Shown: positions 896-4,770 of the stretch, in pieces
How positions within the stretch are numbered: the first letter of the stretch is position 1
Layout of the letters: the number at the start of each line of letters is the position of its first letter
NCBI GenBank assembly: GCA_007745835.1
Contig: CP036424.1
Location: forward strand, 372,001-436,000
Direction: 5' to 3'
Source of the DNA: Planctomycetes bacterium MalM25
GTDB lineage: Bacteria; Planctomycetota; Planctomycetia; Pirellulales; Lacipirellulaceae
DNA length: 64,000 nt
Notes under the pieces: model-generated
What the model was told of the DNA's origin: nothing
What the model saw: only the letters and a program-made list of their open reading frames with translations
Databases searched by the model: none
Translations under genes and position numbers: made by a program

Positions 896-1714
896 TCAGT
901 CCCGACGCTTCATCTGGCTGAGCACCGCGTTGTGCAACTCCGCGGTCGAGGCGATCAGGTAGTCCGCTTTCCAGACGTCGAAAGGCTCGCCCCTCGAGTC
1001 GGTGACGCAGGCGCCCGCCTCCTGGGCGATCAGCACGCCGGCCGCGGCGTCCCAGGGCTGGATCACGTGGGCCCAGTGGGCGTCGAGCCGCCCGGCGGCC
1101 ACGTACGACAGATTGAGCGCCGCCGAGCCGGTCCGCCTGACCGCACGGCAGGCTTGAACGACCGAGACAAAGCCCGCCAAGTCGGGCGAATTGGCGTCGA
1201 CGCGCGGCGGCAGGCTGACCGCGACCAGCGCCTCGCCAAGCTGGGTGGCGTCGGTCGTTTCGATCCGTTGCTCGCCCAGCCAAGCCCCCCCGCCCCGCGA
1301 GGCGGAGAACATCTCGTCGCGCAGCGGGTCGTACACGGCGCCGGCGATGAGCTCGCCGTCGAGCACCGCGCCGATGCTGGTGGCGAACATGGGGAAGCCG
1401 TGGACATAGTTCGAGGTGCCATCGAGCGGATCGACGACCCAGCAGAGCCGCCCCTCGCGTTCGGCAGGCGTCGCGTCCTCGGCAGCGCTCTCTTCGCCGA
1501 CGAAGCAATCGTCCGGCCGCTCGGTGAGTAACAGTTCCCGCACGGCCCGTTGCGAAGCGAGGTCGGCGTCGGTGACCAGGTCGGCAGGGCCCTTCTCTCG
1601 GGTTGTGAACTTCTCACGCCAAGCTAGCAGCGTTTCCCCCCCAACACGCGCGGCTCGTTTGGCCAGATCACCGAGGGCAACCGGGTCGATTGAAGGTTTT
1701 TCAGGAGTGGCCAT
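896..1714 (-). CDS. Inositol monophosphatase family protein
   Basis: Mg-dependent sugar/inositol phosphate phosphatase of 272 residues, the normal length of the family. The metal site is visible: GEES (E74, E75), the signature DPLDGT (95-100) followed by SNYVHGFP, and the C-terminal PWDAAAGVLIAQEAG motif. The reading frame continues upstream to 1894, but those residues are Pro/Ser/Gln-rich and unlike the family, so I start at the ATG at 1714 (MATPEK). IMPases, 3'(2'),5'-bisphosphate nucleotidases and fructose-bisphosphatases share these motifs; the length and absence of inserts favour a plain IMPase (SuhB-like). It is transcribed away from the candidate RNA at 1936. Substrate is not determined. 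Confidence 0.92.
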   Translation of the reverse strand: MATPEKPSIDPVALGDLAKRAARVGGETLLAWREKFTTREKGPADLVTDADLASQRAVRELLLTERPDDCFVGEESAAEDATPAEREGRLCWVVDPLDGTSNYVHGFPMFATSIGAVLDGELIAGAVYDPLRDEMFSASRGGGAWLGEQRIETTDATQLGEALVAVSLPPRVDANSPDLAGFVSVVQACRAVRRTGSAALNLSYVAAGRLDAHWAHVIQPWDAAAGVLIAQEAGACVTDSRGEPFDVWKADYLIASTAELHNAVLSQMKRRD

Positions 1715-1901
1715 CGGGTCGCTCGGCTTGGGGTAGGGGATCGGCTGAGGGGCTTGGGCCGGCCCTCCGGTGGGAAAGCTGTACGGGTTGAGCTGTCGGG
1801 TCAACCCGGTGTGGGTTTGGAATGCAAGTGGATGGCTCGATGATTGGCCCGATTCGTGGCGTTGATCTGACGGAAAATCGCCCACAGGCGTCACAAAAGT
1901 C

Positions 1902-1929
1902 TGGACATGGCTAGCGGTTCTGGTAGGAT
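1902..1929 (+). promoter_or_regulatory. Candidate sigma-70 promoter for the structured RNA
   Basis: TGGACA at 1902-1907 (five of six to the -35 consensus) and TAGGAT at 1924-1929 (four of six to the -10) are 16 bases apart. A start near 1936 would begin the RNA described next. Planctomycete housekeeping promoters are poorly defined, so confidence is modest. Confidence 0.4.
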
Positions 1930-1935
1930 CACTTG

Positions 1936-2082
1936 TGGTTCGAGAGAGCCGTGGCTTGGATTGTCCCGCCCATCAGCGGGAGGCGATTGCCTAATCCAAT
2001 ATCATCCCCGGTTCCGAAGCGACGGCCTCTTCTCTGTTCCGGCCCCGTCGTTGCACCCTCGGGTGTGCGGCGGGGTTTTTTT
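1936..2082 (+). ncRNA. Candidate structured RNA ending in an intrinsic terminator
   Basis: About 147 bases with no good coding frame but nested complementarity. TTGGATT (1956-1962) pairs exactly with AATCCAA (1993-1999). Inside lie two abutting hairpins, CCCGC/GCGGG (1965-1969/1976-1980) and AGGC/GCCT (1981-1984/1989-1992), making a compact three-way junction with almost no unpaired bases. An outer stem is possible between GAGAGAGCCG (1942-1951) and CGGCCTCTTCTC (2023-2034) with two bulges. The transcript would end at a hairpin plus seven T. The match to a promoter upstream suggests an independent small RNA; because the next start codon is only 44 bases beyond the T-run, a cis-acting leader is also possible. 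I do not recognise a known RNA family. Confidence 0.45.
2043..2082 (+). terminator. Rho-independent terminator
   Basis: CCCCG (2043-2047) pairs with CGGGG (2071-2075); the stem continues imperfectly through TCG/CGG and ACC/GGT, and a run of seven T (2076-2082) follows on the plus strand. No protein gene on this strand ends nearby, so it most likely terminates the RNA beginning near 1936. Confidence 0.6.
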
Positions 2083-2126
2083 ATTGGCCGCCGCCTTTCT
2101 TGTGTCTCTCGACGATTTGCGTCGCC

Positions 2127-2747
2127 ATGAACTCAGTGGTCACGGAAGATTCACTCGCCTGCGATGCGTTTCGCGGCCTCTTTGTCGATAACTGCCTCAG
2201 CGGATTAACGTGGCACGACGCCCCGGTTGAGGGGACGCTCCTGTCGGTGGATACCCTGCGGGGGCCTCTCCCCGGAGCGAGCGACGCTTACACACGGGGC
2301 GGCGATCGCGTTACGACCCACGCCCCGTCCGAGGCGTTCCCGTTTCAGACCCAGCTCCTTTGGTCGGCCGCCAAAGTCGCCGGCGGAGTCGCGGTCACAC
2401 TCACGGTCTCGTTGCAGACCGACCTGCTCGACTCGCAGCCGAACCTCGCGCTGGTCACGCAGCTGCCCGGCGTGTCGCCCAGGCGGCGTGGGCCCGACGC
2501 GTTGCGGTTCGATCTGCCGAAGTGCGCGACACTCCTGCTGACGCCGCACCCGTCGGACACCCCGGAGTGCGCCGCGGTGCTCGAGGGGGAGCGGGGCGTG
2601 CTGAAACTGTCGCCCCCGTTCCTCGAGAAGGGCGTCATCCGGCGGTGCCGCGTTGCGGCGATCTGGCTGCCCGCCGACTCCGACGACGCGGCGATCGAAG
2701 CGGCCCTTGCCGACTTCGCCGATCAGCCCCTGCCGCTGACGACGTGA
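2127..2747 (+). CDS. Hypothetical protein
   Basis: Predicted protein of 206 residues, unrecognised. Charge is balanced and there is no signal peptide or membrane segment, so it is probably cytoplasmic. Visible features are alternating hydrophobic stretches suggesting a beta-rich fold (VAGGVAVTLTVSLQTDLL, ATLLLTPHP) and a short acidic helical end (DDAAIEAALADFADQ). The frame could start at a TTG at 2100, but ATG 2127 (MNSVVTED) is preferred. It lies 44 bases after the terminator of the candidate RNA and converges with the BBP7 gene eight bases on. Coding character is good (strong GC3 pattern); function unknown. Confidence 0.7.
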   Translation: MNSVVTEDSLACDAFRGLFVDNCLSGLTWHDAPVEGTLLSVDTLRGPLPGASDAYTRGGDRVTTHAPSEAFPFQTQLLWSAAKVAGGVAVTLTVSLQTDLLDSQPNLALVTQLPGVSPRRRGPDALRFDLPKCATLLLTPHPSDTPECAAVLEGERGVLKLSPPFLEKGVIRRCRVAAIWLPADSDDAAIEAALADFADQPLPLTT

Positions 2748-2754
2748 TCAGCGA

Positions 2755-4770
2755 TCAGTAGTTGAGTTCGGCGCCCAGGTTCAGGCCGTGCGCCCAGAAG
2801 CTCGTCTCATCCCAATCGAAACGCGGGTGGGTGTAGGCGGTTGTGTTGTACAGCGGGTTGGACGCGAGGCCGCCGTTCACTGAGAAGTCGATGTGGTCGC
2901 CCGGCCGCACGACGTTCGCCCAGTAGACGAGCGTGTACCCCGCGCTGAGGCTGAACCGTTCGGTCACCCGGTACGAGAGCCGCGCGGAGAGTTCGGGCAG
3001 GATGCTGAACTGGTCCCGCTCGTACACACCGAGGTTGCTGGTTTGCGCGAGTAGGCCGCCCGGCGTGGTGACGCCCTGCACGCCGTTGGCGCCGATCGTG
3101 TTCGTGCCGTAGATCGAGACCCGTTGCCGTGTGTTGCCTAACGCCACCTTGCTGAGCAACTCGAGTCCCCACCGTCGCGAGAGCCACTCGTAGCTGACGC
3201 CCAAGTCGATTCCGTGGAAGTCGTTGTCGACCTCGAAGCCCTCGTTCACGCTGACCGTACCGCCGGCGCTGGGCGTGCTCGTTCCGATCAGGGTGACGTT
3301 CTCGTTGAAGATCAGTTCCTCTTCGAGGTCCGCGTGGCGGTAGCCAACCAAGAAATCGACGCGCGAGATCGCTCGGGGACGGGCTCCCTTACGCAGCCCG
3401 AGCAAACCGCCGCCGCCCTGGCAGCTCGGGCAGTTACACGGGTCGCATCCGCCGCCGATCTCGCGGCAGCAAAGCCCTGTCCTGAGCAGGAGGCCCGCCA
3501 TGCGGAAGCGGCTGCGGGCGGCGATGCTCAGCGAGCCCCCGACCGCGTTCGGGAAGGAGATGAGCTGCACGTCGTCGGCCGGCGGCAGTTCGTTGTCGTT
3601 CGGGTCGATTGGCGAAGTGTTGTAGAACGGCCGGCCCAGCACGCTGGTTCCGGCGAGATCGGAGAAGCCGTAGACGTCGCTCTCGGTCTCGAAGTTGGTC
3701 CAGCTCGCCTCGAGGCCGATGTCGCGGTTGTTGTCGAGCCAGCCACCGATCGTGAAGCGGAGACCGTCACGTGAGCCGTCGAGCAGGTCTCCGCCGAAGA
3801 CGACCTGCGTGCCGGCCACGCCGAGGATCGGCGCGCCGCCCTGGGTGTTGGTCGTCACGAGGGGGGGGGTGTTCATGCCGTCGAACGTCCACAGCAGGTA
3901 CTCGACCCGTCCGTAGATTCCCCGCCGCGACGCCGGGTTGCAGCTCGGCCCGCAGAACCCCTTGGGGGCGTTGCAGGTGGGGCAGGGCGCCGCGTTGCAA
4001 TGCGGGCAGTCGTTGTCGTAACGCGAGTACGGCTTGTTGGCTTGGCTCTGGCAGTGGGGGCAATCGGCCGCGTGGTGAGAACCGGTCGCCTCGTTGAGCG
4101 TGTACTCGGGCAGCACCTCGGTGGCGGGGATCGGCTCAAGCCGGTCGTCGCCCGTGGGCGAAGGCAGCTCGTCCGCGTAGGCGTCGTCGCTCAGGTCGGG
4201 GTCGCCCGCTTCGCCGTCGAGGATCTCGTCTAGGTCGATCGGTTCGGTCGGGTCGGATTCGCTCGCTTCGCCGTAGCGATCGGCGCCCTCCACGAGGCGG
4301 TCCACCAGTTGCACGGGCACGACCACGTACTGCTGACCCGGCTCGTCGGTCGCCAGGGCGGTCTCGATCCGTGATACCTTCCGGGGCGGGATGAACTGAG
4401 CCGGCGAGACGGCCCGCAGCTCCGACGAGGGCTCCGCCACGGGCGTCCGCGACGAAACGGGCGAGGGGAAAACCAATTGAGAAGCGAGCAGGATGTCGCC
4501 CGTGTCGTGCCGGATGCGGACCTTCTGGCCGACGTGCGGCGCCAGCTTCATCCCGGGCGACGGTTCAACGAACCGTTGCACGCGGCCGAACTGGTCCGCC
4601 AGCGCGTAAGGGGGTTCGCCGTTACGCGTGTTGGGGTTGCGGATGAGGATCGCCATCGTGCCGGCGGCCTTCGGCGAGGCGCCGTTGGTCGGAGTCTGCG
4701 CGGCGGCCGGCGCGGCGGCGAGCAGCACCGCGGCGAGCAGGGCGAGGCTTTGGGTAGGCCAGCGATCCAT
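2755..4770 (-). CDS. BBP7-family outer membrane beta-barrel protein
   Basis: Exported protein of 671 residues. Residues 1-24 form a signal peptide (LALLAAVLLAAAPAAAQ). An acidic linker (about 180-225) precedes a cysteine cluster near 235-275 with CPHC, CPHC, CPTC and CGPSC. Then comes the BBP7-like opening GRVEYLLWTFDGMNTPP, aromatic-rich alternating strands, and the C-terminal end HGLNLGAELNY. A second Cys cluster (CDPCNCPSC) sits mid-barrel. BBP7 proteins are a planctomycete family predicted to be outer-membrane barrels; role unknown. The N-terminal third (about 40-160) is unlike the barrel and may be periplasmic. It is monocistronic, divergent from the sigma factor gene at 5023. Confidence 0.88.
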   Translation of the reverse strand: MDRWPTQSLALLAAVLLAAAPAAAQTPTNGASPKAAGTMAILIRNPNTRNGEPPYALADQFGRVQRFVEPSPGMKLAPHVGQKVRIRHDTGDILLASQLVFPSPVSSRTPVAEPSSELRAVSPAQFIPPRKVSRIETALATDEPGQQYVVVPVQLVDRLVEGADRYGEASESDPTEPIDLDEILDGEAGDPDLSDDAYADELPSPTGDDRLEPIPATEVLPEYTLNEATGSHHAADCPHCQSQANKPYSRYDNDCPHCNAAPCPTCNAPKGFCGPSCNPASRRGIYGRVEYLLWTFDGMNTPPLVTTNTQGGAPILGVAGTQVVFGGDLLDGSRDGLRFTIGGWLDNNRDIGLEASWTNFETESDVYGFSDLAGTSVLGRPFYNTSPIDPNDNELPPADDVQLISFPNAVGGSLSIAARSRFRMAGLLLRTGLCCREIGGGCDPCNCPSCQGGGGLLGLRKGARPRAISRVDFLVGYRHADLEEELIFNENVTLIGTSTPSAGGTVSVNEGFEVDNDFHGIDLGVSYEWLSRRWGLELLSKVALGNTRQRVSIYGTNTIGANGVQGVTTPGGLLAQTSNLGVYERDQFSILPELSARLSYRVTERFSLSAGYTLVYWANVVRPGDHIDFSVNGGLASNPLYNTTAYTHPRFDWDETSFWAHGLNLGAELNY

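Follow-up and report, generated by a model that had tools for sequence, protein, structure and literature searches.

A very probable uncatalogued small RNA of Planctomycetia with a nearly invariant C/U-rich motif

Introduction

The window, a 64,000-nt stretch of the genome of Planctomycetes bacterium MalM25 (contig CP036424.1, positions 372,001-436,000), contains an intergenic region with a promoter, a compact group of hairpins and an intrinsic terminator. It lies between a divergent gene for an inositol monophosphatase (IMP) family protein and a gene that starts at position 2127. What does this region encode? A first, sequence-only reading centred on a three-way junction and proposed either an independent regulatory RNA or a leader controlling the gene at 2127. 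Comparison with related genomes points to the locus being, very probably, a widely spread and uncatalogued small RNA, and it moves the interest from the junction to a short unpaired motif next to the terminator. Coordinates below are those of the window unless another contig or locus is named.

Results and discussion

Layout of the locus

The promoter, the 7-bp stem around two abutting hairpins and the terminator that had been read from the sequence are each in place. Open reading frames called across the RNA were taken for chance frames. The elements are as follows.

899-1714, minus strand: upstream divergent neighbour, IMP family protein (PF00459, E 3e-61).
1902-1929, plus strand: promoter, with -35 box TGGACA (1902-1907), a 16-base spacer and -10 box TAGGAT (1924-1929), read from the sequence.
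1936-2082, plus strand: predicted RNA, long form, about 147 nt, its ends placed from the promoter and the terminator.
1936-2024, plus strand: 5' extension, variable outside the genus; it begins purine-rich, contains hairpins and has, at the level of the family, a TTGCCTAAT...ATCCC stretch.
1956-1999, plus strand: three-way junction of stems P1, P2 and P3 (sequence, shuffles, covariation).
1956-1962 with 1993-1999, plus strand: junction stem P1, TTGGATT with AATCCAA (sequence).
1965-1969 with 1976-1980, plus strand: junction stem P2, CCCGC with GCGGG (sequence).
1981-1984 with 1989-1992, plus strand: junction stem P3, AGGC with GCCT (sequence).
2025-2046, plus strand: conserved 22-mer GCCTCTTCTCTGTTCCGGCCCC, whose final CCCC forms the base of the terminator stem.
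2043-2082, plus strand: intrinsic terminator, with stem 2043-2050/2068-2075 and T-run 2076-2082 (shuffles, covariation).
2127-2747, plus strand: downstream neighbour, a fast-evolving protein without a Pfam match, outside the RNA.

Conservation is concentrated in a 22-nt motif

BLAST searches with window positions 1885-2130 recovered the region in 53 of 59 related Pirellulales genomes, representing 32 of 37 genera. In most distant relatives the match was reduced to about 2023-2086. The 53 positive genomes gave 54 loci for inspection (one genome, G047, has two), and GCCTCTTCTCTGTTCCGGCCCC is exact in all 54 copies. Mean identity to the window's copy in global alignments of these loci is 0.57 in the 5' extension, 0.65 in the terminator loop and 0.50 in the downstream DNA. 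The IMP protein, where found, is 40-57% identical at loci outside the genus of MalM25.

Exact-match scans are biased toward conservation, and the invariance of the motif is argued instead from BLAST and from mismatch-tolerant searches. A 24-mer pattern with up to 3 mismatches matched 144 of 296 Pirellulales genomes, a count that includes some genomes with only the second RNA described below (for example G010). The reversed control pattern matched 2 genomes in this search and 2 in the corresponding search of the class. The 22-mer was exact in 29 of the 30 copies taken from the class sample. When 60 copies representing the short and the long form were aligned (A2; taken from the 145 in which promoter and terminator are both good), 21 of the 22 columns proved invariant and the remaining one has a single exception.

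Diverged copies of the short RNA exist but are rare. Among the matches listed, the single mismatch of five copies falls at position 1, 23 or 24, outside the 21 inner bases. A further 29 of the listed loci have 2-3 mismatches: 25 of these are the second RNA (judged by eye), three are neither or unclear (L242, L368, L375) and one is a true copy (L370, 1501-1555, genome G212) whose terminator is intact but whose motif has three changes in its first part. L370 is the sole clearly diverged copy seen and would be useful for testing which motif bases matter. A lack of conservation in relatives, which would have spoken against the RNA, was thus not what was found: conservation is far above expectation, but it lies in another part of the RNA than the junction, in the stretch 2025-2046, which the sequence-only reading had not singled out.

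The three-way junction is confined to the genus

Taken alone, the 47-nt junction, a stretch picked after being seen, scores z -3.01 against 200 shuffles, of which 198 fold less well. The 110-nt body without the terminator reaches z -1.73, with 10 of 200 shuffles as good, and in the minimum-energy fold of the full-length 155-nt sequence the 7-bp P1 is not formed and an outer stem takes over. Within the genus (four sequences) every pair of P2 and P3 is kept, and P1 is complete but for its first position in two sequences; one compensatory exchange was found in P1 (T-A to A-T) and one in P2. P1 was not seen by eye in the other family rows of alignment A1, from which L019, L032 and L041 were left out as more diverged in the extension. 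Across 31 family members, two of the four P2 pairs have double changes and P3 has none. RNAalifold reported no pair with double changes over the same 31 members and predicted none of P1, P2 and P3.

Could the junction nevertheless be a functional domain, riboswitch-like or part of a structured regulatory RNA? The shuffles, the two exchanges within the genus and the covariation of P2 over the family would suit such a domain, but with P1 unseen outside the genus and missing from the full-length fold, none of the three stems predicted by RNAalifold and the whole extension lacking from short forms of the RNA, this is very unlikely. The junction is a genus-level local elaboration of a variable 5' extension, and the idea that it forms the functional core found no support in the comparison.

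A second nearly invariant stretch is seen in the family alignment A1 at window positions 1981-2017, where TTGCCTAAT is followed by ATCCC. It may be another single-stranded functional element.

Terminator, promoters and two forms of the RNA

The terminator is retained in relatives. It folds with z -3.80 against shuffles, and a G-run and T-run stand directly behind the motif in 180 of 187 unique copies; the other seven comprise two with an interrupted T-run, two cut by the locus end and three without a terminator. Compensatory changes in relatives, proposed earlier as a check on the structure, were found in its upper stem (25 double-change cells of 480, with 0 of 500 shuffles as high). The CCCC/GGGG at the foot of the stem never varies.

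Promoters are likewise common: 158 of 182 regions upstream of RNA copies score 9 or more for a promoter, versus 20 of 182 shuffled ones. The distance from the -10 box to the motif is mostly either about 90-120 nt, as in most Pirellulales loci, or about 10-20 nt. The loci with short spacing include ones titled Gemmataceae or Gemmatales and also some Pirellulales. Eight short-form loci adjoin the Pirellulales neighbour IMP, so the form does not follow the order strictly. These spacings imply a predicted short form, an RNA of about 66 nt with a short leader, the unpaired motif, the terminator hairpin and a U-run, and for most Pirellulales copies a predicted long form of about 148 nt with a variable 5' extension. 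The 145 copies in which promoter and terminator are both good divide into 54 short and 84 long forms, apart from seven that fell in neither class and were left out.

In predicted folds of the 54 short forms the motif bases CCUCUUCUCU are 91% unpaired. The same bases are 40% unpaired in the 84 long forms, versus 49% when the extensions are shuffled, a weak indication that the 5' extension covers the motif somewhat in the long form. A switch in which the extension sequesters the motif was also considered. The mean duplex energy between an anti-motif in the extension and the motif is -13.9 kcal/mol versus -12.5 kcal/mol for shuffled extensions (mean empirical p 0.34, with 13% of the 84 long forms at p<=0.05). 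This is only slightly better than shuffled and too weak for such a switch to be claimed.

Range and losses of the short RNA

The 24-mer pattern (up to 3 mismatches) matches 125 of 248 genomes in a sample of the class Planctomycetia, Pirellulales included. Outside Pirellulales the matches are spread over several families (f21, f23, f25, f26), and some genomes have two or three copies; the f22 genomes listed have none. In an exact-match scan of genome contigs, 79 of the 80 records listed (of at least 120 stretches) are planctomycete-named and one is an unplaced "bacterium". Beyond the class, a covariance model of motif and terminator found nothing convincing in a sample of 294 genomes of the phylum. 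Its weak matches (E 1e-4 to 0.01) lie in 15 genomes of other classes and in two of f22; six of these were inspected and discarded, since they resemble terminators or unrelated sequence.

Pattern searches did not find the short RNA in the sampled lineages f22 and f7, so it is not generally essential. Some f15 and f17 genomes likewise gave no copy. Thirteen of 14 genomes without it have an IMP match, and within 1.5 kb upstream of those IMP genes the best 20-base stretch is at least 7 positions away from the motif. In 5 of 6 f7 genomes the pair of IMP and downstream gene is kept with no RNA found between. The losses look clean.

Neighbouring genes and the leader hypothesis

In most of the 54 Pirellulales loci an IMP gene is found upstream and a relative of the 2127 gene downstream. 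The protein encoded at 2127-2747 is syntenic and fast-evolving; where tblastn detected it in loci beyond the genus, it is about 24-39% identical. Five loci (L029, L034, L036, L038, L053) showed neither neighbour by tblastn with the window's proteins, although the downstream frame of L029 is a distant relative of the 2127 gene despite the tblastn miss. In other lineages the neighbours are different: genes for polyphosphate kinase (L057), an MMPL protein (L177) and MlaE were confirmed, at one locus each. Since the neighbours vary between lineages, the short RNA acts in trans, if it acts.

The competing proposal is a cis-acting leader or attenuator of the 2127 gene, in which binding to the motif blocks the terminator and allows read-through. 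In favour of such a leader, the CCCC of the motif is the 5' foot of the terminator, so that binding would compete with the hairpin, and a related downstream gene is present in most of the 54 Pirellulales loci. It is nonetheless quite unlikely: different genes lie downstream in other lineages, the five loci above show neither neighbour (with the reservation for L029), and the f7 genomes keep the gene pair without the RNA. Of the two options raised by the sequence-only reading, the leader is therefore unsupported, given a downstream gene that is not constant and the f7 genomes, and the independent regulatory RNA is supported by a promoter and terminator kept in relatives, by the lack of a fixed neighbour outside Pirellulales and by the loss of the RNA where the neighbour pair stays.

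Copies on viral contigs

Three IMG/VR viral contigs carry a copy of the short RNA, and the two distinct ones fold with the terminator hairpin. In L207 the copy (1872-1940) is located just before the frame of the terminase small subunit, on a contig that also encodes the large subunit and a head protein. In L205 (copy 2976-2995, minus strand) an integrase gene lies about 2 kb away, and L206 has the same sequence as L205 around the RNA. Collections of phage and plasmid records gave no match to the short RNA.

These copies raise the question of whether the 22-mer is constrained as DNA, as a phage attachment or protein-binding site, or as a short coding sequence. The integrase near the L205 copy would fit an attachment site and all three frames of the 24-mer are open, but a coding sequence would allow synonymous change, and 21 of 22 columns do not vary while the last varies in one of 60 aligned copies. 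A DNA site would have no need of the terminator that stands at a fixed distance in 180 of 187 copies, and attachment would leave the class-wide conservation unexplained. Constraint at the level of DNA or protein is thus most unlikely.

A second RNA with the same motif

A second intergenic element of Pirellulales contains a palindrome, a GGCGAG/CTCGCC hairpin and one or two copies of the bipartite motif CCTCTTC-N-CCGRCCC, with a third seen by eye in some loci. From its sequence it is a candidate uncatalogued structured RNA of this order, and it has no Rfam match. Its copy in the MalM25 genome is the following.

G000:C1:316887-316990 (locus L278, 314890-319490), minus strand: second RNA, with two motif copies at 316780-316798 and 316754-316772.

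The hairpin covaries, with 28 double-change cells among 180, a level that none of 500 shuffles reached. The alignment of the second RNA omits L242, which is not of that type, and A5 omits L239, which was in the wrong register. A model built from the 5' part only found the second RNA in 46 of 59 relatives. By pattern, 39 of these 46 loci have at least one bipartite motif copy at variable spacing, as do 29 of the 34 loci from genomes outside model building. Both RNAs occur in 44 of the 59 relatives, only the short one in 9, only the second in 2 and neither in 4, counts in which relatedness is uncontrolled. The second RNA often adjoins a divergent PSCyt2/DUF1549-type gene (PF07583 confirmed in L230 only, the others by eye) and its other side varies. 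Over 46 loci, the motif and the G-rich part of the second RNA pair scarcely better than expected by chance (mean p 0.33, with 9% of values below 0.05). In L246 and L258 the second RNA is accompanied by further motif-like stretches and by a GGGGAGGG hairpin loop upstream.

Relation to known RNAs

The sequence-only reading had assigned the RNA to no family, which the covariance models bear out: with E values up to 5 allowed, nothing in Rfam 15 matched window positions 1000-3500, and no match over the RNA reached the gathering score. In the loci of four relatives there was one match, away from the RNA. MicroRNA and tRNA-Sec hits were dismissed, being elsewhere in the loci or far below gathering scores. 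Nothing in the literature consulted on small and structured RNAs of planctomycetes was recognised as the short RNA.

C/U-rich sRNAs that target Shine-Dalgarno regions, such as RsaE/RoxS and LhrC, offer one likeness, a pyrimidine-rich unpaired stretch that would be suited to purine-rich ribosome-binding sites. The conserved stretch is much longer here.

The closest parallel in design is Yfr1 of cyanobacteria, described as 54-69 nt long with a perfectly conserved unpaired C/U-rich motif by a Rho-independent terminator and a phylum-wide spread with secondary losses (PMC2190773). The short RNA also has a conserved unpaired C/U-rich motif beside its terminator and a wide spread with losses. The Yfr1 motif is the 11-nt ACUCCUCACAC, versus the 22-nt GCCUCUUCUCUGUUCCGGCCCC here, with no sequence relation between them, and Yfr1 as described has a 5' stem-loop, whereas in the predicted short form only a few nt precede the motif. 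Membership in Yfr1, in which unpaired ACUCCUCACAC lies between two stem-loops, was rejected: this motif is absent from the window's RNA and the short forms have no room for the 5' stem-loop. Yfr10 is reported as an otherwise unrelated RNA carrying the Yfr1 motif (PMC6778093), and the second Pirellulales RNA is comparable as a second bearer of a motif. The Yfr10 motif is placed in a loop, while in the second RNA it often occurs as two copies, at variable spacing, behind a covarying hairpin. The Rhodopirellula-1 motif, listed for Proteobacteria and Planctomycetes as ambiguous as an RNA and probably cis-regulatory (PMC2864571), is likewise a planctomycete candidate RNA without an Rfam accession. 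It is possible that the short or the second RNA is identical to it.

Function, targets and partners

The preferred reading, which we consider probable, is that the locus encodes an independent small regulatory RNA that acts in trans and is shared by much of Planctomycetia, with the motif as its working part. It has a promoter and an intrinsic terminator of its own, lacks a conserved reading frame and is independent of the neighbouring gene, which are the marks of an sRNA. Promoter, terminator, near-invariance, independence of neighbours and accessibility in predicted folds are computed results; transcription and the mode of action are read from them. The working part would be the unpaired C/U-rich 22-nt motif GCCUCUUCUCUGUUCCGGCCCC at the base of the terminator hairpin. 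The short form of about 66 nt would expose it close to the 5' end, with only a few nt ahead of it; in the long form, that of the window and of most relatives, it is preceded by an extension of about 90 nt that may partly cover it. Once transcribed, the RNA would act by short base pairing of the motif with several messages, most naturally at purine-rich Shine-Dalgarno-type regions. This mode of action is favoured because the design is analogous to that of Yfr1, and we give it about even odds.

In 36 family genomes a search for targets near start codons (CAGAGAAGAGG-N2-14-ATG) returned 27 hits, of which 13 are the RNA gene's own complement. The remaining 14 are confined to 8 genomes, so there is no widely kept site of this kind, an 11-nt complement near an ATG. 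On either strand of the MalM25 genome no other stretch lies within 3 mismatches of the 24-mer. The RNA was not placed among Hfq-dependent sRNAs, as PF17209 had 0 matches in the MalM25 genome (5 of 14 control genomes match).

The main rival to base pairing is recognition by a protein. Under this alternative the motif is the site of an RNA-binding protein, and the short RNA with one site and the second RNA with often two serve as decoys or assembly sites of the CsrB type, with no base pairing. At 22 nt the conserved stretch exceeds the usual length of a base-pairing seed and so also fits protein binding, and it is conserved with no complement within 3 mismatches in the MalM25 genome. The recurrence of CCUCUUC-N-CCGRCCC at variable spacing in 39 of 46 second-RNA loci speaks for it too. 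A search of 20 genomes with the bipartite pattern is divided in its message: in four of the nine family genomes outside the genus all hits are the two RNAs and the other five have 1-3 more, but the genus itself has hits beyond the two RNAs, the MalM25 genome giving 12 versus 2 for the reversed control. Furthermore, the one protein tested, Hfq, is absent from that genome. Of 40 genomes selected from f7, f15 and other orders, many of them carriers of the short RNA, only one yielded the second RNA. Overall, a protein that recognises the motif is possible but on balance doubtful.

More speculatively, and with still less confidence, the motif could serve as the recognition signal in a post-transcriptional system of Planctomycetia that works without Hfq and in which one regulator, whether a protein or a set of messages, would be addressed by the short RNA, by the second RNA and by host-mimicking phage copies.

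One review counts eight annotated sRNAs in total for the PVC group (PMC9029176). A class-spanning RNA with a motif so constrained would be a core regulator. The short form would be a ready bait for targets or a protein partner in a group where RNA regulation is little explored, and the sharing of the motif with the second RNA and with phages would provide independent handles on the same question.
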